Part shown: positions 1,976 to 31,754 of the stretch, piece by piece | Layout: each line of letters begins with the position of its first letter | Position numbering within the stretch: position 1 is the first letter of the stretch | Assembly: GCF_000013385.1 (NCBI RefSeq) | Contig: NC_007760.1 | Location: 1,054,001-1,118,000, forward strand | Reading direction: 5' to 3' | DNA: 64,000 nt | DNA from: Anaeromyxobacter dehalogenans 2CP-C | Lineage (GTDB): Bacteria; Myxococcota; Myxococcia; Myxococcales; Anaeromyxobacteraceae | The notes under the pieces: generated by a model | What the model was told of the DNA's origin: nothing | Seen by the model: only the letters and a program-made list of their open reading frames with translations | Database searches by the model: none | Program-made: the position numbers and the translations under genes

Positions 1976-4900
1976 ATGACGACGAGGATGCTTCGGCACT
2001 GGGCACGGCTGGCGCTGGCCCTGGCGTCGATCGGCTGGGCGGCGGACGCACCGCGGGCGGCGTCCAGCGCGGGCGGCTCGCAGCAGACGCGGGTCTCGCA
2101 GGCGCAGCGCGACGCGGCGGCCGCCGGCTCCGGCCTGGTGGTCCAGAGCCTGGACGCCGCCATGACGACGGCGACCATGGCCGCGCCGGGCTCGGCGCCG
2201 CACTACTTCGGCCCCTACGCGAACTACGCCAACAGCCCGCTCCGGCTGGCGGATGCGACCGTGAGCATCACCGGGGCCGGCACGGGGGCGACCGCCACCG
2301 CCACCGTGGACCTCGTCACCGGCGCCGTCACCGGCGTCGCGGTCACCGCCCCCGGGACCGGCTACCTCGCCGACGGGAGCACCCTCGTCACCGTCACCAG
2401 CGCCGCCACCACCGCGACCGGCGCGGCCGCGACGGCGGTGGTGGATCCGGTCACCGGCGCGGTGACCGCCATCACGCTGGACGCGCCGGGCACGGGCTAC
2501 GTCACCCCGGGCATCCGCAAGTTCGTGAACGGGCTGCCCGGGCTCGGCGCCGCCGCCGCCAACGACCTCGGCCAGTACATCCCCGTGGCCGTCCCCGACA
2601 CCACCACGTACCCGGGCTCCGACTACTACGAGATCGCGGTCGTGCAGTACCGCGAGCAGCTCCACTCGGACCTGCCGCCCACGCTGCTGCGCGGCTACGT
2701 GCAGCTCGCCACGGCGGTGGTCCCCGGCGCCGGCGTCCCGCTGGTGGGGACCGACGGCCTGCCCATCGCGCTCCCCGGCGGGCAGCAGGCGGTCGGGGTG
2801 GACCGCCCGCACTCCCTGGGGCCGGCCATCCTCGCCACGAAGGACCGCCCGGTCCGGATCCTGTTCCGCAACCTGCTCCCGACCGGTCAGGGCGGCGAGC
2901 TGTTCCTGCCGGTGGACACGACGGTGATGGGCGCGGGCATGGGCCCGGACATGGGCGGCATGGCCGAGCCGGATCCGCGCAGCCCGATGTGCGGCATGAC
3001 GCCGAAGCCGATGGGCTGCTTCGCGGAGAACCGGGCCACGCTGCACCTCCACGGCGGCATCACGCCGTGGATCAGCGACGGCACCCCGCACCAGTGGATC
3101 ACGCCGGCGGGCGACTCGACCACGTATCCGAAGGGCGTCAGCGTGACGAACGTGCCCGACATGCCGGATCCCGGCCCGGGCGCGATGACGTTCTTCTACA
3201 CGAACCAGCAGAGCGCGCGGCTCATGTTCTACCACGACCACGCGTGGGGCATCACCCGGCTCAACGTCTACGCCGGCGAGGCCGCGGCCTACGTGATCTC
3301 CGACCCGGCCGAGGACGCGCTCGTCGCGCAGGGGATCATCCCCGGGCTGGCCGAGACGCTGCCGCTCATCGTGCAGGACAAGACGTTCGTGCCGCCCGAG
3401 CCGCAGCTCGCCGCGCAGGATCCGACCTGGGACCTCGCGCGCTGGGGCGGGCTGGGCAGCCTCTGGGTCCCGCACGTCTACATGCCGGCGCAGAACCCCG
3501 GTGACGCGAGCGGCGTGAACCAGTTCGGGCGCTGGGCCTACGGGCCGTGGTTCTGGCCGCCCACGTCCAACATCGACTACCCGCCCATCGCGAACCCGTA
3601 CTACGACCCGGCCTGCGACCCGGGCGCCGGCTGGTGCGAGCCGCCGCTGGTCCCGGGCACGCCGTGGCTGTCCATGGGCATGGAGGCGTTCAACGACACG
3701 CCCACGGTGAACGGCACCGTCTATCCCACGGTGACGCTCGAGCCGAGGACCTACCGCCTCCGCATCCTGAACGCGGCCAACGACCGCTTCTTCAACCTGC
3801 AGCTCTACGTCGCCGACGCGAGCGGCACCGAGGTGGCGCTGAACGCCGCCGAGGTGCAGGCGGCGCTGGCGGATCCCGCCGGCGTGTTCCCCACGCCCGA
3901 CACGGCGCTCAGCCCGCCCGGCCCGAGCTTCGTGCAGATCGGCACCGAGGGCGGCTTCCTGCCGTCGCCGGTGGTGGTGCCGCCGCAGCCCATCACCTGG
4001 GTGACCGACCCCACCGTGTTCAACGCGGGCAACGTGGACAAGCACGCCCTGCTGCTCGGCCCCGCCGAGCGCGCCGACGTGATCGTGGACCTGTCGGCGT
4101 TCGCGGGGCAGACGCTCATCCTCTACAACGACGCGCCCGCCGCGTTCCCCGCGCGCGACCCGCGCTACGACTACTACACCGGCAACCCGGACCTGACCTC
4201 GACCGGCGGCGCGCCCTCCACGCCGCCCGGCTTCGGCCCGAACACCCGCACCGTCATGCAGATCAAGGTGAGCGGGAGCACCCCGGCCGCGCCGTTCGAC
4301 CTCGGGGCGCTGCGGGCGGCGTTCGCGCACAAGGCCGACGGGACCGGCGTGTTCGAGTCCTCCCAGCACCCCATCGTCGTCGGCCAGGAGCCGTACAACG
4401 CCGCGCTCGGCACCGCCTTCCAGGCGAACGGCCCGCGCGCCGGCCTGGTGCAGATCTACGACGAGCTGTTCGCGTTCGACACCGTCTCCGGCGTGCCGCT
4501 CACCATGCCGCTGCAGCGCAAGGCCATCCAGGACGAGATGGGCGAGGCGTTCGAGAAGGAGTACGGGCGCATGAGCGGCAACCTCGGCCTGGAGGCGCCC
4601 AACGCGCAGGCGGGCCAGCAGCAGAACCTGATCCTGTACCCCTACGTCAACCCGGCCAGCGAGGTCCTCGCCGGCATCGTGCTGCCGCCCGGCGTGGACG
4701 TGACCCCGATCACCACGACCGACGACGGCACCCAGCTCTGGAAGATCACGCACAACGGCGTGGACACGCACCCCATCCACTTCCACCTGTTCGACATCCA
4801 GCTCGTCAACCGCGTCGGCTGGGACGGCATCGTCCGCCGGCCGGACGCGAACGAGCTCGGCTGGAAGGACACGGTGCGGATCAGCCCGCTCGAGGACACC

Positions 4901-6055
4901 ATCGTGGCGATGCGGCCCGTCGTCCCGAAGCTCCCGTTCGGCCTGCCGCACAGCGTCCGCCCGCTCAACCCGATGATGCCGCTCGGCTCGCCGGACGGCT
5001 TCAACAGCGTGGACGCGAACGGCAACCCCGTCAGCCCGGCGCTCACCAACGTCATGACCGACTTCGGCTGGGAGTACGTCTGGCACTGCCACATCCTCAG
5101 CCACGAGGAGATGGACATGATGCGGCCCATGGCCGTCTCGGTCGCGACGACCCTGCCGTACCCGCCCACCGGCGTCACGGTGGCGCCCGGCGCGGGCGGC
5201 GTGGACCTCGCCTGGATCGACGCCACGCCGGTGAGCTACGCCGGCACGGCGACCTGGGGTGACCCGTCGAACGAGATCGGCTTCCGCGTGGAGCGGGCGC
5301 CCATCGGGAACAACGGGAAGGCGGGCGCGTACGTCTCGCTCGGCACCACGCTCGCGAACCAGGCGCGGTTCCGCGACGCCACCGCCGACCCGGCGCTGAC
5401 CTACAGCTACCGGATCGTGGCGGTGAGCTCGGCCGGCGAGTCCGTCTCGGCGCCGGTGGGCGGGCCGCTGCCGGCCGCGCCGCAGGCCCCCACGAACGCG
5501 GTCGCCACCCTGGCGGCCGGTCCGTCGGTCGCGCTCACCTGGCGCGACAACGCGACCAGCGAGGCGTACTTCGTCCTGGAGCGCTCGGTGGACGGCGGGG
5601 CGTTCGCGTACCTGTCGGCGCCGCCGGCGCGCAGCAACACCGGCACGGTGACGTTCACCGATCCCGCCGTGTCGAGCGGGCACACCTACCAGTACCGGGT
5701 GAGCGCGGTGAACGCGGGCGGCTCGTCGGCCCCGGCGGTCTCGAACGCCGTGACCGTCGTGAGCCCGCCGCTGCCGCCCTCCGGCCTGGCCGGCACCGCG
5801 GTGCGCTCCGGGAAGAAGGCGAACGTCACGCTCACCTGGGTGGACGGCTCGACCGACGAGACCGGGTTCGAGCTCCAGCGCGCGACCAACGCGTCGTTCA
5901 CGGTGGGGCTCAACACCAGCACCCTGGCGGCCAACACCGTCACGGTGACGCAGACGGGCCTGTACCGCGGCGTCACGTACTCCTACCGGATCCGCGCCGT
6001 GAACGGCGGCGGGGCGTCCGCCTGGTCGAACGTGGCGACCGTGGTCACGCCGTAG
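1976..6055 (+). CDS. Large secreted multicopper oxidase with three C-terminal fibronectin type III domains (OmpB-like)
   Basis: A 1359-residue exported oxidase. ATG 1976 was chosen over the upstream ATG at 1913 because GGGAGGA lies just before it and a signal peptide (about residues 1-30) then starts the protein. All four copper motifs are visible: HLH at 357-359, HDH at 420-422, HPIHFH from 932 to 937, and HCH at 1037-1039 with H1043 and a likely axial Met1048. So type 1, 2 and 3 copper sites look intact. Residues of about 95-185 hold two copies of a VTGAVT...APGTGY repeat, and about 1065-1359 hold three fibronectin III domains. The family normally has 450-650 residues. Geobacter OmpB, a multicopper protein needed for Fe(III)/Mn(IV) oxide reduction, has a similar plan (recalled, not aligned). 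Substrate unknown; metal oxidation or a surface electron-transfer role is plausible. Confidence 0.88.
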   Translation: MTTRMLRHWARLALALASIGWAADAPRAASSAGGSQQTRVSQAQRDAAAAGSGLVVQSLDAAMTTATMAAPGSAPHYFGPYANYANSPLRLADATVSITGAGTGATATATVDLVTGAVTGVAVTAPGTGYLADGSTLVTVTSAATTATGAAATAVVDPVTGAVTAITLDAPGTGYVTPGIRKFVNGLPGLGAAAANDLGQYIPVAVPDTTTYPGSDYYEIAVVQYREQLHSDLPPTLLRGYVQLATAVVPGAGVPLVGTDGLPIALPGGQQAVGVDRPHSLGPAILATKDRPVRILFRNLLPTGQGGELFLPVDTTVMGAGMGPDMGGMAEPDPRSPMCGMTPKPMGCFAENRATLHLHGGITPWISDGTPHQWITPAGDSTTYPKGVSVTNVPDMPDPGPGAMTFFYTNQQSARLMFYHDHAWGITRLNVYAGEAAAYVISDPAEDALVAQGIIPGLAETLPLIVQDKTFVPPEPQLAAQDPTWDLARWGGLGSLWVPHVYMPAQNPGDASGVNQFGRWAYGPWFWPPTSNIDYPPIANPYYDPACDPGAGWCEPPLVPGTPWLSMGMEAFNDTPTVNGTVYPTVTLEPRTYRLRILNAANDRFFNLQLYVADASGTEVALNAAEVQAALADPAGVFPTPDTALSPPGPSFVQIGTEGGFLPSPVVVPPQPITWVTDPTVFNAGNVDKHALLLGPAERADVIVDLSAFAGQTLILYNDAPAAFPARDPRYDYYTGNPDLTSTGGAPSTPPGFGPNTRTVMQIKVSGSTPAAPFDLGALRAAFAHKADGTGVFESSQHPIVVGQEPYNAALGTAFQANGPRAGLVQIYDELFAFDTVSGVPLTMPLQRKAIQDEMGEAFEKEYGRMSGNLGLEAPNAQAGQQQNLILYPYVNPASEVLAGIVLPPGVDVTPITTTDDGTQLWKITHNGVDTHPIHFHLFDIQLVNRVGWDGIVRRPDANELGWKDTVRISPLEDTIVAMRPVVPKLPFGLPHSVRPLNPMMPLGSPDGFNSVDANGNPVSPALTNVMTDFGWEYVWHCHILSHEEMDMMRPMAVSVATTLPYPPTGVTVAPGAGGVDLAWIDATPVSYAGTATWGDPSNEIGFRVERAPIGNNGKAGAYVSLGTTLANQARFRDATADPALTYSYRIVAVSSAGESVSAPVGGPLPAAPQAPTNAVATLAAGPSVALTWRDNATSEAYFVLERSVDGGAFAYLSAPPARSNTGTVTFTDPAVSSGHTYQYRVSAVNAGGSSAPAVSNAVTVVSPPLPPSGLAGTAVRSGKKANVTLTWVDGSTDETGFELQRATNASFTVGLNTSTLAANTVTVTQTGLYRGVTYSYRIRAVNGGGASAWSNVATVVTP

Positions 6056-23852: not shown

Positions 23853-24176
23853 ATGATCCTCGACGACGTGCTGCGGAATCCCGTGCTGAAGCGCGCCCTC
23901 GCCGCCGGCGAGGAGCAGGTGGGCCGGGTGGTCGGGAAGCTGCTCGCCAGCGACCGGGCCGGGCGCGGGCTCCAGTCGCTGGTGAGCTCGGCGCTGCAGG
24001 CGCGGAGCACGTTCGACCGCGGCGTCCGGCAGGCGCTGCACGCGGCCAACCTCCCGTCCCGGGACGACGTGGCGGCGCTGAAGCGCAAGCTCGAGGAGCT
24101 CGAGCAGATGATCGACGGGCTCTCCGAGCGCGTGGACCGCGGCGGCCCGGACCGCGGCGGGCCCGGTCCGGAGTAG
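23853..24176 (+). CDS. Small helical protein with C-terminal coiled coil (phasin/PhaM-like)
   Basis: 107 residues. The first half is a helical segment (DDVLRNPVLKRALAAGEEQV), and 68-95 is a heptad-rich coiled coil (VAALKRKLEELEQMIDGLSE) ending in a Gly/Pro/Asp tail. This general plan is seen in granule-associated or phasin-like proteins, and a PhaR-type regulator is encoded 3.9 kb away, so a PHA granule role is possible, but similarity is weak. ATG 23853, 45 bp from the divergent ATPase gene and 27 bp before the ParA-like gene, with which it is probably cotranscribed. Confidence 0.6.
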   Translation: MILDDVLRNPVLKRALAAGEEQVGRVVGKLLASDRAGRGLQSLVSSALQARSTFDRGVRQALHAANLPSRDDVAALKRKLEELEQMIDGLSERVDRGGPDRGGPGPE

Positions 24177-24202: not shown

Positions 24203-25012
24203 ATGCGGCGGATCGCGTTCATCAACGAGAAGGGCGGCACCTGCAAGACCACGCTGTGCGTGCACGTGGCGGCGCGGCTCGCGGCGCGCGGGCTGCGCGT
24301 GCTGGTGGCCGACCTCGACACCCAGGGCCACGCGGGGAAGTCGCTCGGCGTGGACGTGCGCGGCCTGGCGCCCACCGTCCACGAGTGGCTGCTCGACGAC
24401 GCGGTGCCGCTCGAGCGGGTGGTCCGGCCCACCGCCGTGGCCGGCCTCGACCTGCTGCCCGCCAACAAGGACCTGGCCGGCTTCCCGGTGGCGGTCGCGC
24501 CGGCGGCCGACCGCGCCGAGCGGCTCGATCGCCGGCTCGCCACGGTGGGCGAGGGCCGGTACGACGCGGTGCTGATCGACGCGCCGCCCTCGCTGTCGCT
24601 CGTGACCGACAACGTGCTGCGCGCGGCGCGCGAGCTGGTGGTGCCGGTGGCGCTCACCTACCTCGCGCTCGACGGCTGCGCCGAGATCGTCCAGAGCCTG
24701 GACCGCCTCCGCGCCGAGCGCGGCGCGGCGCCGGCCATCGCGCTGGTGGTGCCGACGCTCTACCGCAAGACGCAGCTCGCCGACGAGATCCTGGCGAAGC
24801 TGCGCGAGCGGTTCCCGGGGGAGCTGTCGCGGACGGTGCTGGGCTGGTCGGTGAAGGTGGACGAGGCCCAGAGCCACGGCCGGACCGTGTTCGAGCACGC
24901 GCCGCGGTCGAGCGGGGCGGCCGCGCTCGCCGCCATCGGCGACGAGGTGCTGGCGCGCGCGCCGGCCCCCGCCGGCGTCACGGCAGCGGCGGCCCGAGCG
25001 GCCGGCTCCTGA
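24203..25012 (+). CDS. ParA/Soj-like ATPase with a KGGTCKTT P-loop
   Basis: 269 residues. The deviant Walker A is NEKGGTCKTT (residues 8-17): the glycine before the catalytic lysine of the usual KGGTGKTT is a cysteine. Switch motifs are otherwise present: VADLDTQGHAGKSLG and DAVLIDAPPSLSLVTDN. It is a MinD/ParA-type cargo-positioning ATPase; no ParB gene or parS site is close, so it is not the chromosome-partition ParA. ATG 24203 is the start; a GTG nine bases earlier lies too close to the G-rich ribosome site. The 3' end overlaps the converging LysR gene by 35 bp. Cargo unknown, perhaps linked to the small helical protein encoded just before it. Confidence 0.85.
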   Translation: MRRIAFINEKGGTCKTTLCVHVAARLAARGLRVLVADLDTQGHAGKSLGVDVRGLAPTVHEWLLDDAVPLERVVRPTAVAGLDLLPANKDLAGFPVAVAPAADRAERLDRRLATVGEGRYDAVLIDAPPSLSLVTDNVLRAARELVVPVALTYLALDGCAEIVQSLDRLRAERGAAPAIALVVPTLYRKTQLADEILAKLRERFPGELSRTVLGWSVKVDEAQSHGRTVFEHAPRSSGAAALAAIGDEVLARAPAPAGVTAAAARAAGS

Positions 25013-26589: not shown

Positions 26590-27384
26590 ATGGAACGGCA
26601 GGGAGCGGGGCGGCGCATGCCGGTGCTGTTCGTGGGGCACGGCTCGCCCATGAACGCCGTCGAGGACAACCGGTGGAGCCGCGCGTTCCGCGGCCTCGCG
26701 CCGCTGCTCCCGCGCCCGCGCGCCATCCTGGCGGTGTCCGCGCACTTCGTCACCGCCGGCAGCCTCCTCACCGGCCAGGAGCGGCCCGAGACCCTCCACG
26801 ACTTCGGCGGCTTCCCCGACGCGCTGTACCGCGTCCGCTACCCGGCCCCGGGCGCTCCGGAGCTGGCGCGGCGCGCGGCGGCGCTGGTCGCGGGGGACGG
26901 CGCCCGCGTGGTGGACGGCTGGGGCCTCGACCACGGCACCTGGAGCGTGCTCGTGCACGCGTTCCCGGCGGCCGACGTGCCGGTGGTGCAGCTCTCCATC
27001 GACGCGGAGCTGGACGCGGCCGGCCACCTCGCGCTGGGCCGGGCGCTCGCGCCGCTCCGCGACGAGGGCGTGCTGGTGATGGGCAGCGGCAACCTGGTGC
27101 ACGACCTGCGGCACGCCTTCGCCGCCTTGCGCCGGGGCGACGCCACCCCGCCGGCGTGGGCCGCCCGCTTCGACGCGGACGCGGCCGCCGCGCTGGAGCG
27201 GCACGACACGCGCTGGCTGGTGGACGCGATCGGGAGCCCGGACGGGCGGCGCGCGCACCCCACGCCCGAGCACTACCTGCCGCTGCTCTACGCGGCGGGG
27301 GCGGCGGGCGCGGACCCGGTGCGGTTCCCCATCACCGGGTTCGACATGGGCTCGCTGTCGATGCGCGCCGCGCTGTTCGGCTAG
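26590..27384 (+). CDS. DODA-type extradiol ring-cleavage dioxygenase (YgiD family)
   Basis: 264 residues of the LigB superfamily. Zn/Fe ligand histidines are visible in VLFVGHGSPMNA (N-terminus), SAHFVT and LDHGTWSVL, and the GSGNLVHDLR block is also conserved. E. coli YgiD opens the ring of L-DOPA; the natural substrate of most bacterial members is unknown. ATG 26590 follows GGGAGG with good spacing. It is paired with yceI, and converges with phaR with 27 bp between. Family is certain, substrate is not. Confidence 0.88.
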   Translation: MERQGAGRRMPVLFVGHGSPMNAVEDNRWSRAFRGLAPLLPRPRAILAVSAHFVTAGSLLTGQERPETLHDFGGFPDALYRVRYPAPGAPELARRAAALVAGDGARVVDGWGLDHGTWSVLVHAFPAADVPVVQLSIDAELDAAGHLALGRALAPLRDEGVLVMGSGNLVHDLRHAFAALRRGDATPPAWAARFDADAAAALERHDTRWLVDAIGSPDGRRAHPTPEHYLPLLYAAGAAGADPVRFPITGFDMGSLSMRAALFG

Positions 27385-27394
27385 GCGGGCCGGG

Positions 27395-27413
27395 AGCGCC
27401 GGCCGGGGGCGCT
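27395..27413. terminator. Hairpin between converging dioxygenase and phaR genes
   Basis: Arms AGCGCC and GGCGCT with a 7-base GC-rich loop. It lies between the two stop codons and reaches into the phaR stop. It could serve as a bidirectional terminator, but there is no T run, and such short repeats are common at this base composition. Confidence 0.3.
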
Positions 27414-28047
27414 ACTGGGCCGCGGGCGGCTCCTGGGGCGGGGGCGGCGGGCGATCCTCGCGCGCGGACTCCTCCAGCTTCCGCTCCAGCTCGTGCAGCC
27501 GCGTGGTGATCTCGTCGAGCTGCCGGCGCACCTCGGACAGGCTGGACACGCCGTCCACGGCCGCGCGCACCCGCTCGTCCACCCGGCGCTGCAGCGACGC
27601 CATCGCCTCCTGCGAGGCGGACATGAGCTCCTTGGCGCGATCGCTGGTGGCCTGGCTGCGCGCCATCAGGTTCTGGACCCGCTGCTCGGCCGCGGCCCGC
27701 ACCGCCTCGACCCGCCCGCGGAGCTCGGCCTGGGTCCCCACCACCAGCCGCTGGGCCACCTCGCCGCCGTGGCGGATGAGGTCCCGGAGCGTCTCGAGGC
27801 TCATCTTGGAGGTCTTCTTCTCCTCCTCGAAGATGATCTGCGCGAGGGTGATGGAGGTGAGGTCCTCCTTGGTGCGGTTGTCGATGATCTTGACCTCGGC
27901 ACCGCCCTTGATCATCTCGGCGATCTCGTCGAGCGTGACGTACCGGGACTCGACCGTGTCGTAGAGCTTCCGGTTCGTGTACCGCTTGATGACCTTGGGC
28001 TCGACGCCGGCGGTGGTGTCCGTACCTTCGGTGTGCTGGTCGTTCAT
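27412..28047 (-). CDS. phaR: Polyhydroxyalkanoate synthesis regulator PhaR
   Basis: 211 residues. The N-terminal PHB_acc DNA-binding domain is clear: IKRYTNRKLYDTVESRYVTL and IAEMIKGGAEVKIIDNRTKE. A long helical part follows, with a C-terminal heptad coiled coil (LDEITTRLHELERKLEES) and a Pro-rich tail. PhaR proteins bind PHA granules and repress phasin and PHA genes until polymer is present. In myxobacteria and Geobacter related proteins also occur without a PHA synthase close by, as here. ATG 28047 with GGATGGAG before it. Confidence 0.9.
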   Translation of the reverse strand: MNDQHTEGTDTTAGVEPKVIKRYTNRKLYDTVESRYVTLDEIAEMIKGGAEVKIIDNRTKEDLTSITLAQIIFEEEKKTSKMSLETLRDLIRHGGEVAQRLVVGTQAELRGRVEAVRAAAEQRVQNLMARSQATSDRAKELMSASQEAMASLQRRVDERVRAAVDGVSSLSEVRRQLDEITTRLHELERKLEESAREDRPPPPPQEPPAAQ

Positions 28048-28085
28048 CGCTCCATCCGCGGCGGTAAGTGTGCGAAACTTCGGGC

Positions 28086-28151: not shown

Positions 28152-29936
28152 ATGATCGCCCACTGCACCCACTGCCAGGCGAAGTTCCGGATCGCCGACG
28201 ACAAGATCGGACCGCGCGGCGCCAAGGTGCGCTGCTCGCGGTGCAAGACGGTGTTCGCGGTCCGCCGGCCCGATGCGCCGCCGGCCGCTCCGCCGCCGGA
28301 GCCCCGCCCGGCGTCCATCCCGCCGCCCGGCCCGGCGCTCCCCGGCCCGGCCGATCCCTTCGCGGAGCCCGCGTTCGCGGCGGGGCCGGACCCGTTCGCC
28401 GCCGATCCCTTCGCGCCTCCTCGCCCGGCCGGTGTGGACCGGGCACCCGAGCCGTTCGGCCCGGATCCGTTCGCTGGCGAGCCGGGGGCGCCGCGCGCCG
28501 ATCCGTTCGCGCTCGAGACGCCGCCCACCGGCTTCCCGGGGCCCGAGGGCGCCGATCCCTTCGCGTTCACGCACGGTGATCTCCCGGCGCCGCCCGGGCT
28601 CGCCGACGGTCCGGCCGATCCGTTCGCGGCGGCGGCCGACGCCGGGGATCCGTTCGCCGCGGCGCTCGCGGGCGCCGCCGACCCGTTCGCCGCGTCCGTG
28701 TCGCCGCGCCGCCGCGCCGCCGCCGAGCTTCCCGCGGGCCTGGCCGCCCCCGCCCCCGGCGCCGCGCCGGGCGGCTCGTCGGCGCTGCCGCTCACCGATC
28801 TCTCCGACCTGCTCGGCGACGCGCCCGCCCCGGCTCCCGCCGCGCCACCTCCGCTCCCCGCGCCGGCAGCGCTCGCGCCGGAGCCGCTGCCGCCGGCGGG
28901 CGGCCTCGACCTCGCGTTCCCGCCCGAGCCCGCCCCCGGGCTGCCGGCCGGCCTCGCCCTGGAGCTCGCCGCTCCCTCCGAGCCGGACGCGTCGCTCGAG
29001 GCGCCGCCGCCGCCCCCGTCGATGGACCTCGATCTCGCCGGCGGCCCGGACCTCGGCCTGCCGGGCGGGCCGCTGTCCGGCGCGGACCTGGCGCTGGAGG
29101 AGCGCTCGACGCCGGCGCCGGCGCGTCTGGACGAGGCGCCGATCGAGGACGATCCGTTCGCCCGGGCCGCGCCCTGGGCGCCGGGCGCGGACGCGGGCCC
29201 GAACGAGCTCTCCTTCGCCGATCGCGGCGAGGAGACGCTGGCCCTCGCCACGGAGCCGTCCGGGCCGCTCGCGGCGCCGCCTCCGCTCCCGCCGGAGCCT
29301 CCCCCGCCCGCCAGGGTGATCGCGCCCGCGGAGCCGGCGGAGGTGCCGGCGCGCGAGGCCCCGCGGCCGGCGGGGCCGCGCGGCGGGCGGCTGCGCTCGG
29401 TCGCGGTGAACGCCGCGGCGCTCGCCGCGCTCCTGCTGGTGGCGCTCGCGTTCCGGGTGGCGTGGCGCGGGGACGCGCCGCTCGAGCCGGGCGCGTTCCG
29501 GCCCTCGTCGGTGCTGGGCGCGGTGGGCCTGGGGGAGCGGGCCGCCGGGCCGCTCTCGGTGGTCGAGGTGCGCAGCGGGCTCTACGACCGCGCGCGCGGC
29601 GGCCCGGTGCTGTTCGTGCGCGGCAAGGTCGTCTCGCGCGCGCCGTCGCCGGTGGCCCGCGCGCGCGTGGAGGTGGAGCTCGTCCGCGACGGCCAGGTGA
29701 TCGCGCGCGGCGCCGCGCCGGCCGGCGCCGTCGCGACGCCCGAGGAGCTCCACGGCGCCGGAGGCCCCGCGGAGCTCGAGGCGGTGGTCCGCGCCGCCGC
29801 GGCGCGCGCGCCCGCCCAGCTCCGCCCCGGCGAGTCCCTGCCGTTCCTGGTCGTGCTGCCGGACGCGCCGGACGACCTCGCCGGCGCCACGGTGCGCGTG
29901 GCCGCGACCGGCGGCGTGGCGGCGGCCGCCCGATGA
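28152..29936 (+). CDS. Zinc-ribbon (MJ0042) membrane protein with ten DPFA motifs and DUF3426-like C-terminus
   Basis: 594 residues. An N-terminal zinc ribbon (Cys5, Cys8, Cys28, Cys31) is followed by about 370 residues of disordered Ala/Pro/Gly-rich sequence, one membrane helix (about 416-437), and a C-terminal domain (about 460-594) like DUF3426, normally extracytoplasmic. The disordered region has nine DPFA tetrapeptides between about residues 68 and 182, and a tenth near 335 (DDPFA), which looks like a set of binding motifs for another protein. It is coupled to the next gene by ATGA. Similar zinc-ribbon/linker/membrane plans occur in myxobacterial motility proteins such as GltJ, but I have no evidence of identity. 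Role unknown. Confidence 0.78.
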   Translation: MIAHCTHCQAKFRIADDKIGPRGAKVRCSRCKTVFAVRRPDAPPAAPPPEPRPASIPPPGPALPGPADPFAEPAFAAGPDPFAADPFAPPRPAGVDRAPEPFGPDPFAGEPGAPRADPFALETPPTGFPGPEGADPFAFTHGDLPAPPGLADGPADPFAAAADAGDPFAAALAGAADPFAASVSPRRRAAAELPAGLAAPAPGAAPGGSSALPLTDLSDLLGDAPAPAPAAPPPLPAPAALAPEPLPPAGGLDLAFPPEPAPGLPAGLALELAAPSEPDASLEAPPPPPSMDLDLAGGPDLGLPGGPLSGADLALEERSTPAPARLDEAPIEDDPFARAAPWAPGADAGPNELSFADRGEETLALATEPSGPLAAPPPLPPEPPPPARVIAPAEPAEVPAREAPRPAGPRGGRLRSVAVNAAALAALLLVALAFRVAWRGDAPLEPGAFRPSSVLGAVGLGERAAGPLSVVEVRSGLYDRARGGPVLFVRGKVVSRAPSPVARARVEVELVRDGQVIARGAAPAGAVATPEELHGAGGPAELEAVVRAAAARAPAQLRPGESLPFLVVLPDAPDDLAGATVRVAATGGVAAAAR

Positions 29937-30688
29937 CCGCGGGCGCGGCGCCCGGGCCGGGGACGGACGCCCGCGCGCTGATCCGCCAGCTGGCCGCGCT
30001 GGAGGAGGGGCCCATCCGCGCCCGCGCCGCGGCCCGCGCGCTGGGCGCCACCGAGCCGGCGCGGGCGGCGGAGCTGATCGCCGCGCTGGCGCGCCACGGC
30101 GCGGGCGAGGCCCGGGGCGCCATGGCCGCGGTCGCCCAGGCGCTGCGCGATCCCGAGCCCGACCTGCCCTACGCCTGGCGGGCCGACCTGTACGCCGCCG
30201 CGGCCGAGCGCGGCCTCGCCGAGGTCACCGGGCTCCTGGTGGCCCCGCCGCCCCGGAAGCCGTGGCGCCCGCCGCGCGACAAGGCCGACGCGCGCCTCGC
30301 CCACCTGACCCTCGGCCACAAGAAGGCGCTGGCGCGCGCGCACCGCGATCCGGACCTGCTCGCGCGGCTCGCGGCGGAGGGCGAGCCGTCGGTCGTCCGC
30401 GAGCTGCTCCGCAACCCGCAGCTCACCGAGCCGTTCGTGGTGCGGATCGCGGCCCGCCGCCCGTGCCGTCCCGAGACGCTGCGGTGCGTGGTCGAGTCGC
30501 CGCGCTGGCGCACGCGCACCGCGGTGGCGCTCGCGGTGGTGCGCAACCCGTACGCCGAGACGGAGCTGGCGCTGAAGCTGCTGGCGGTGCTGCCCGGCGC
30601 CGAGGTGGCGGAGGTGGCGCGGGACGGCGCGCTGCACCCGCTGGTGCGCGCGGTGGCGGCGCGGCTCGTGGCGGGGCGCGCCGGCTGA
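29933..30688 (+). CDS. Helical-repeat (HEAT/leucine-rich-variant-like) protein of unknown function
   Basis: 251 residues, cytoplasmic, with no signal or membrane segments. The second half consists of repeated helical units of the type RDPDLLARLAAEGEPSVVRE / LLRNPQLTEPFVVRIAARRP / VVRNPYAETELALKLLAVLP, as in DUF2336/leucine-rich variant or HEAT proteins. Start ATG 29933 overlaps the stop of the zinc-ribbon gene, so both proteins are probably made together and may work together. I do not recognise a specific family. Confidence 0.75.
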   Translation: MTAGAAPGPGTDARALIRQLAALEEGPIRARAAARALGATEPARAAELIAALARHGAGEARGAMAAVAQALRDPEPDLPYAWRADLYAAAAERGLAEVTGLLVAPPPRKPWRPPRDKADARLAHLTLGHKKALARAHRDPDLLARLAAEGEPSVVRELLRNPQLTEPFVVRIAARRPCRPETLRCVVESPRWRTRTAVALAVVRNPYAETELALKLLAVLPGAEVAEVARDGALHPLVRAVAARLVAGRAG

Positions 30689-30980: not shown

Positions 30981-31754
30981 ATGTCCACCCCGAACCGCAG
31001 GGCCCCGCGCGCAGCCGGCCGCCCGCTGGTGCTCGGCCACCGCGGCGCGAGCGCCGACGCGCCCGAGAACACGCTGGCCGCCTTCCGCCTGGCCCTGGCG
31101 CAGGGCGCCGACGGGGTGGAGCTGGACGTCTGGCGCTGCCGGACCGGCGAGGTGGTGGTCGTGCACGACGAGGACACCGGGCGGGTGGCCGGTCCACGCT
31201 TCCGCGTGGACGCGACGCCGCTCCCCGAGCTGCGCGCGCTCGACGTGGGCGCGTGGAAGGGCGAGCGGTTCCGCGGCGAGCGGATCCCCACGCTGCCGGA
31301 GGTCCTGGAGGCGCTCCCCGGGGCGGTCGTGAACGTCGAGCTGAAGTCGCGCGGGCGGGACCTGCGCCTGGCCGAGGCGGTGGCGCGCGACGTGCGCCGC
31401 GCCGGGGCGGAGGGGAGGGTGATCGCCTCGTCGTTCGACTACCGGCTGGTGGCGGCGTTCCGGCTGGCGGCGCCCGAGGTGCCGGTGGGGCTGCTCTTCG
31501 AGCCGGGACACCGCTGGCGGCTGCGCACCGCGCTCGCCGCCCGCCTGCTCGGCGCCGCGGCCGTCCACCCCGACGCTTCGCTCGTGACGCCCGCGCGCGC
31601 CGAGGCCTGGCGCGCGCGCGGCCTGGCGGTGAACGCCTGGACCGTGGACGCGCCGGAGGAGGTGGCGAGGCTCACCGGGCTCGGCGCGGCCGCGCTCATC
31701 TCCAACCTCCCGGGCCGCACGCGCGCGCAGGTGCGCGCGCTCACCGGACGCTAG
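30981..31754 (+). CDS. Glycerophosphodiester phosphodiesterase
   Basis: 257 residues, TIM-barrel GDPD family. Catalytic motif LGHRGASADAPENTLAAF near 16-33 with the general acid/base His and Asn-Thr, followed by the metal-binding segment GVELDVWRCRTGEVVVVHDE and the ELKSR strand. Hydrolyses glycerophosphodiesters to glycerol-3-phosphate plus an alcohol. No signal peptide, so cytoplasmic (UgpQ type). ATG 30981; no strong ribosome site is visible. Confidence 0.93.
   Translation: MSTPNRRAPRAAGRPLVLGHRGASADAPENTLAAFRLALAQGADGVELDVWRCRTGEVVVVHDEDTGRVAGPRFRVDATPLPELRALDVGAWKGERFRGERIPTLPEVLEALPGAVVNVELKSRGRDLRLAEAVARDVRRAGAEGRVIASSFDYRLVAAFRLAAPEVPVGLLFEPGHRWRLRTALAARLLGAAAVHPDASLVTPARAEAWRARGLAVNAWTVDAPEEVARLTGLGAAALISNLPGRTRAQVRALTGR

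Follow-up and report, generated by a model that had tools for sequence, protein, structure and literature searches.

A zinc-ribbon membrane protein of Anaeromyxobacter dehalogenans carries a repeated DPFA motif that may act as a docking array

Introduction

Membrane proteins that join an N-terminal zinc ribbon to a transmembrane (TM) segment have been described in Caulobacter and Myxococcus. One account of ZitP from Caulobacter crescentus gives the protein as a zinc_ribbon_5 domain, a TM segment and a DUF3426 domain (PMC5182063). According to a second account, the ZitP ribbon binds PopZ through a basic patch and residue W35, which is needed for binding, and the TM segment lies at residues 106-127 (PMC5182065). 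In Myxococcus, GltJ/AgmX of the gliding machinery has an N-terminal MJ0042 ribbon followed by a long arm and a TM segment, a layout that is shared by the protein described here.

Arrays of linear motifs are familiar in eukaryotes, where the DPF and DPW motifs of endocytic proteins bind the AP-2 ear. To our knowledge, few repeated linear-motif arrays have been described in bacteria.

Here we analyse P0001, a protein of 594 aa (28152..29936, forward strand) encoded in a 64,000-nucleotide stretch of the A. dehalogenans 2CP-C genome (hereafter the window), in which the open reading frame, together with Pfam and NCBIfam searches, indicates a zinc ribbon, an arm with repeated DPFA motifs, a TM helix and a DUF3426-like domain. 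A partial literature search returned no account of P0001 or of any DPFA array.

Domain organization of P0001

The zinc ribbon, which an earlier note made from the sequence alone had already recognized, was borne out by both curated models that describe it. It is of the MJ0042 type (CxxC-X19-CxxC), spans residues 1-38 (28152..28265, forward strand) and matched PF13717 (E 1.4e-14; 54.2 bits, cut-off 30.3) and TIGR02098 (E 3.6e-14; 52.2 bits, cut-off 20.9). It is followed by a Pro/Ala-rich arm of 377 residues that extends to about residue 415, by a predicted TM helix at about residues 416-434 (29397..29453, forward strand), placed at the hydropathy maximum and matched in position by a helix in the model of the Myxococcus xanthus orthologue, and by a DUF3426-like domain at residues 475-581 (29574..29894, forward strand). 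The match of P0001 to DUF3426 (PF11906; E 0.0031, 18 bits) lay below the Pfam gathering cut-off of 27.7, and DUF3426 matches at E ≤ 0.1 were obtained for five of 22 P0001 orthologues, the best at 3.1e-4. When the M. xanthus orthologue was modelled as one chain with its neighbour P0002, the ribbon, a long helix and a beta-sandwich were folded, and the arm was mostly below pLDDT 50 and is predicted to be disordered. The beta-sandwich, at the position of the DUF3426-like domain, was Ig-like, with Z up to 8.4 to glycosidase domains; this one-chain pair model gave no Foldseek match with E ≤ 0.001. Neither P0001 nor P0002 received a functional name over a curated cut-off in Pfam or NCBIfam, in keeping with the earlier view that neither gene has a known function.

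We compared P0001 and its orthologues with ZitP as presented in the two accounts cited above. P0001 has the same order of ribbon, predicted TM segment and DUF3426-like domain (the last being a sub-threshold match in P0001), and all 51 orthologues carry the CxxC-X19-CxxC pattern at the N-terminus and an aromatic residue at position 35, with K18 in 49/51 and R27 in 50/51. The ZitP zinc finger (2nb9) was also in the Foldseek list of the pair model (probability 1.00, E 0.19, rmsd 1.9 over 42 columns). The orthologues differ from ZitP in that residue 35 is F in 51/51 rather than W, R24 is replaced by V or A, and R34 by T, V, I or L; moreover, P0001 inserts its 377-residue DPFA arm before the TM helix, whereas the TM segment of ZitP is already reached at residues 106-127. 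We therefore describe P0001 as ZitP-like in build and not as a ZitP. PopZ was rejected as the ribbon partner, as PF10691 had a match in none of the nine genomes searched (the Caulobacter positive control was found); any player of such a part here would therefore be a different one.

The resemblance to GltJ was confined to the ribbon: P0001 scored 29.2 bits against NF033761, for which the cut-off is 450, over residues 4-42 only, and the GltJ ribbons that we read have I at residue 35. Scores of two proteins considered GltJ-like, L117 (29.4 bits) and L131 (20.3 bits, from the set L131-L136), were likewise far below 450 and restricted to the ribbon; a third, L133, had no NCBIfam match at E ≤ 0.001. 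Given these ribbon-only scores, and that DPF was absent from all 11 proteins over the NF033761 cut-off, we rejected a GltJ/MglA link.

The DPFA array and its conservation

The translation of P0001 contains ten DPFA motifs, confirming the earlier count: nine fall within 113 residues, at residues 68-180 (28353..28691, forward strand; starts at 68, 80, 85, 105, 117, 135, 156, 166 and 177), and the tenth is at residues 334-337 (29151..29162, forward strand), so that the first and the last both lie inside the interval 28350-29165 originally assigned to the array. Shuffling the arm with its composition preserved led to an expectation of 0.086 DPFA, and ten were reached in 0 of 2000 shuffles. In the 5.01-Mb genome, a DNA pattern of two DPFA 10-40 bases apart gave four matches, all in the P0001 gene, with none for the reversed-pattern control, and all five DPF pairs 0-30 bases apart were also within this gene. 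The codons of the DPFA copies vary synonymously and the spacers are unlike each other, so the array is not a recent DNA repeat.

Sixty loci were read, and the ribbon gene was identified by pattern in 51, giving 51 orthologous arms for counting; L029, L058, L064, L065, L067, L071, L072, L079 and L103 were left out as contig ends or pattern misses, and since G017, the genome of L058, does have an orthologue (L119), the 51 arms are an incomplete set. At least one DPF was kept in 49 of these arms and DPFA in 41; L092 and L110 had no DPF, and ten arms had no DPFA. Overall, DPFA was observed 157 times against 2.0 expected, making it the most enriched tetrapeptide among those seen at least 25 times. 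The number of DPF per arm ranged from 0 to 15 and was matched by at most one of 2000 shuffles in 28 of the 51 arms. DPF (234 copies) predominated over NPF (34), APF (13) and EPF (3), and at +3 of the motif about 92% of copies had A, G or S. Between P0001 and its relative in G013, the DPFA residues were identical at 40/40 positions, compared with 276/337 in the remaining arm. This difference, together with the presence of DPF in 49/51 arms, makes the motif look selected. The conservation check proposed in the earlier note, on motif sequence and number in relatives, was thus borne out for sequence and failed for copy number.

The variation in number also bears on how the array is read, as 13 of the 51 arms have a single DPF (12 of them at loci with P0002) and are therefore not multivalent, which counts against docking by an array. 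Twenty-two arms had a copy that fits the pattern [DN]PF[ASQG]xF[AG]; among the Myxococcaceae it lies shortly behind the ribbon, and in some of them it is the only copy. Some genomes, G080 and G082 among them, contain near-identical tandem units. We infer that an ancestral single copy was likely multiplied later in several lineages.

Two further motifs recur in the arms, of the TDLSDLL and LALEERSTP types, near residues 214-220 and 315-325 of P0001. Separately, the G100 orthologue (L096, about 4800-4926) seems to shift frame near its end, where the C-terminal residues stop aligning with relatives, by either a frameshift or a sequencing error.

DPFA arrays in other membrane proteins

We searched 145 genomes of the order with the DPFA-pair pattern, which matched in at least 79 of them, compared with 0 or 1 match per genome for the reversed-pattern control. 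Carriers were identified by reading part of the loci among the matches listed and by profile scans of five proteins. Among the matches listed, these were a protein with a zinc ribbon, a GYF-like stretch (read by eye, no Pfam match), a TM segment and TPRs; the MXAN_5187 family (NF041620; L138 at 733 bits); zinc-ribbon proteins with a different C-terminus (L116, L180); and L172, which begins with a short CxxC-CxxC segment and contains several hydrophobic stretches. One further match, L174, was in our judgement a probable non-coding frame and was set aside.

The zinc-ribbon/TPR protein and the MXAN_5187 family resemble P0001 in having DPFA arrays, a Pro/Ala-rich arm and a predicted TM segment, and differ from it in their other folded domains; no relation of either to P0001 was seen outside the ribbon. 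At least four DPF were present in 7 of 15 arms read for the TPR protein (from 17 genomes) and in 4 of 9 read for MXAN_5187 (from 16 genomes), the remaining loci not fitting the patterns. Second pieces of the same gene were counted once, and for TPR-protein loci without a ribbon only the 330 residues preceding the GYF-like site were counted. In M. xanthus (G119, L150; genes 100% identical), five DPF were found in the P0001 orthologue, six in the TPR protein and seven in MXAN_5187. Some zinc-ribbon/TPR proteins (L287, L131, L132) have DPYA repeats next to DPFA, with nine DPY in G047, for example.

The arrays of this motif in further membrane proteins of myxobacteria suggest that any partner of the array, a putative hub, would be shared between them. 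Three observations count against such sharing: DPF was absent from MXAN_5187 of G076, it was absent from the stretch read of the TPR protein in G041, G087, G132 and G139, and close DPF pairs in the window's genome are restricted to the P0001 gene. Moreover, BatD-like proteins (L114, L130, L175, L177, L185) were read by eye as having DPFA pairs in their exported part, and because these proteins are exported, a cytosolic hub does not explain their pairs.

Proposed function and alternative explanations

Tentatively, and with somewhat more doubt than conviction, we propose that P0001 is a ZitP-like membrane scaffold whose DPFA motifs form a multivalent docking array for a shared, putative cytosolic hub. 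P0001 would be a bitopic inner-membrane protein whose ribbon and disordered arm lie in the cytoplasm and whose single TM helix leads to a small beta-sandwich on the periplasmic side. The repeats would be short linear motifs with [D/N]PF[A/G/S] as the best form, and individually weak copies along a flexible tether would concentrate the hub at the membrane by avidity, with the ribbon and the periplasmic domain binding other partners. The endocytic DPF arrays of eukaryotes offer an analogy, as they too are in disordered arms and dock by avidity. The earlier suggestion that the motif binds a multivalent partner is in part upheld, in that the motif looks selected and is arrayed in other membrane proteins; the expected constancy of copy number did not hold. 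A hub common to several myxobacterial membrane proteins could extend this proposal to a docking code, in which P0001, the TPR protein and MXAN_5187, otherwise unrelated inner-membrane proteins, would vie through their arrays for a single hub in the cytosol, an extension that we think rather doubtful. If true, tunable arrays would set the place and strength of hub recruitment, in a manner comparable to the DPF arrays of eukaryotic endocytosis. A motif that is found in several membrane proteins of one clade, with a copy number that varies between species, may provide a handle on a hub of cell organization, and M. xanthus, which carries three arrays, is genetically tractable.

The alternative that survives best, although we consider it unlikely, is that the repeats act as non-specific aromatic stickers set in a Pro/Ala spacer, through which the arm self-associates or condenses with no specific receptor. 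The low complexity of the arm and the varying number and spacing of copies would suit such stickers, but the motif appears too exact, given the excess of DPF over NPF, APF and EPF and the small residue set at +3; free Tyr or Phe would serve equally well, and DPY is found in some TPR proteins only.

The earlier note had named the product of the overlapping gene, P0002, as a candidate partner, in which case several motifs of the array would sit in the groove of its solenoid; we now regard this as distinctly unlikely. P0002 (251 aa; 29933..30688, forward strand) is a conserved operon mate whose gene overlaps that of P0001 by four bases (ATGA), as previously stated, and relatives of it were matched at E ≤ 0.001 in 141 of the 145 genomes searched, although the weakest matches fall where paralogues also score. 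Its model is an all-alpha solenoid (pLDDT 89, pTM 0.54) with no Foldseek match at E ≤ 0.001 (best E 0.075); structure comparison gave Z 7.0 to the leucine-rich repeat variant 1lrv, the best row being Z 8.0. P0002 itself has no Pfam match, and weak matches to HEAT_2 and LRV were obtained for eight and four, respectively, of 39 homologues. Alpha-solenoid folds often bind linear motifs, and the gene overlap, the conserved pairing, the predicted fold and a strongly conserved segment, NPxLTE...ARRPxRPE, are all consistent with such a role. In the M. xanthus pair model, the first DPFA copy was above pLDDT 50, which also favours binding, but the other four DPF copies were below 50 except for one residue.

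Against this, the presence of P0002 does not track the DPF count. It was not found beside the orthologue in G023 (L069; one contig, 99% complete), where the arm has 12 DPF and the best match genome-wide had E 3.3e-4, and it is retained next to the orthologues without DPF (L092, L110) and at 12 loci with one; where both genes are present (49 loci), arms have anywhere from 0 to 15 DPF. P0002 is also missing from G026 (L070; one DPF), with the other neighbours retained. P0002 is therefore poorly supported as the DPFA receptor, on a tracking test that is weak because there are only two losses (L069, L070). Considered as candidate P0002 sites, the other single-copy arm motifs gave a mixed pattern at these two loci: L069 has the TDLSDLL type and is without the LALEERSTP type, and L070 retains a form of the latter. 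An interaction between P0001 and P0002 via other surfaces is possible, and under our proposal, in which P0002 is unlikely to be the hub, the two would probably work together in that way.

A very unlikely alternative is that the DPFA motif docks, in cis or in trans, on the zinc ribbon itself, by way of the aromatic side chain at position 35 and the basic ones at 18 and 27, so that arms and ribbons of several proteins become cross-linked. The binding of PopZ by the ZitP ribbon through W35 and the basic patch (PMC5182065) lends this some appeal, as does the retention of F35, K18 and R27 in nearly all orthologues. Furthermore, among 70 MJ0042 ribbons from 12 genomes (of 71 matches, the one in G014, L116, is not among them), at least two DPF followed 18 of 43 ribbons with an aromatic residue at 35 and 1 of 27 others (p 3e-4), but this association is confounded by kinship, as the 18 consist of 12 from the P0001 family and six that are TPR-protein-like by ribbon sequence. 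Further points against the ribbon are that 22 of the 43 aromatic-35 ribbons have no DPF, that MXAN_5187 has arrays without a ribbon match, and that position 35 is not aromatic in L116 and L180, both of which have DPF. Lastly, the repeats could have expanded neutrally, without function, within a linker that is GC-rich and of low complexity. This would fit the range of 0 to 15 copies and the near-identical tandem units of genomes such as G080 and G082, but is highly improbable given that the motifs are conserved above the remaining arm relative to G013, differ synonymously in their codons, recur in several families and exceed a reversed-pattern control of 0-1 per genome.

Gene neighbourhood

The P0001/P0002 pair lies in an old, conserved neighbourhood, whose gene order in the window is phasin-like, ParA-type, PhaR-type, P0001, P0002 and GDPD. 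The first two are a small phasin-like coiled-coil gene (23853-24176) and a ParA-type ATPase gene (about 24203-25012). A divergent PhaR-type gene (PHB_acc_N; 27412..28050, reverse strand; PF07879, E 2.2e-27) is a conserved neighbour upstream of P0001, and a GDPD-type phosphodiesterase gene (30981..31754, forward strand; PF03009, E 5.7e-42) adjoins the P0001/P0002 pair, as it also does in M. xanthus. Within the stretches fetched for loci L055-L113, the PhaR-type gene was present in 50/59 and the ParA-type ATPase in 38/59. M. xanthus (L150) has the same order, although no clear match to the phasin-like gene was seen there, and most of the loci fetched preserve part of it. The position of a ParA system next to a membrane scaffold may reflect a functional link. 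In the window, a LigB-type dioxygenase gene (26590-27384; PF02900) separates the ParA-type and PhaR-type genes, which are adjacent in M. xanthus. A record titled Comamonas sp. KCTC 72670 (L151) contains this cluster, 86-97% identical to that of M. xanthus outside the arm protein, and appears to be a myxobacterial record that was mislabelled or contaminated.
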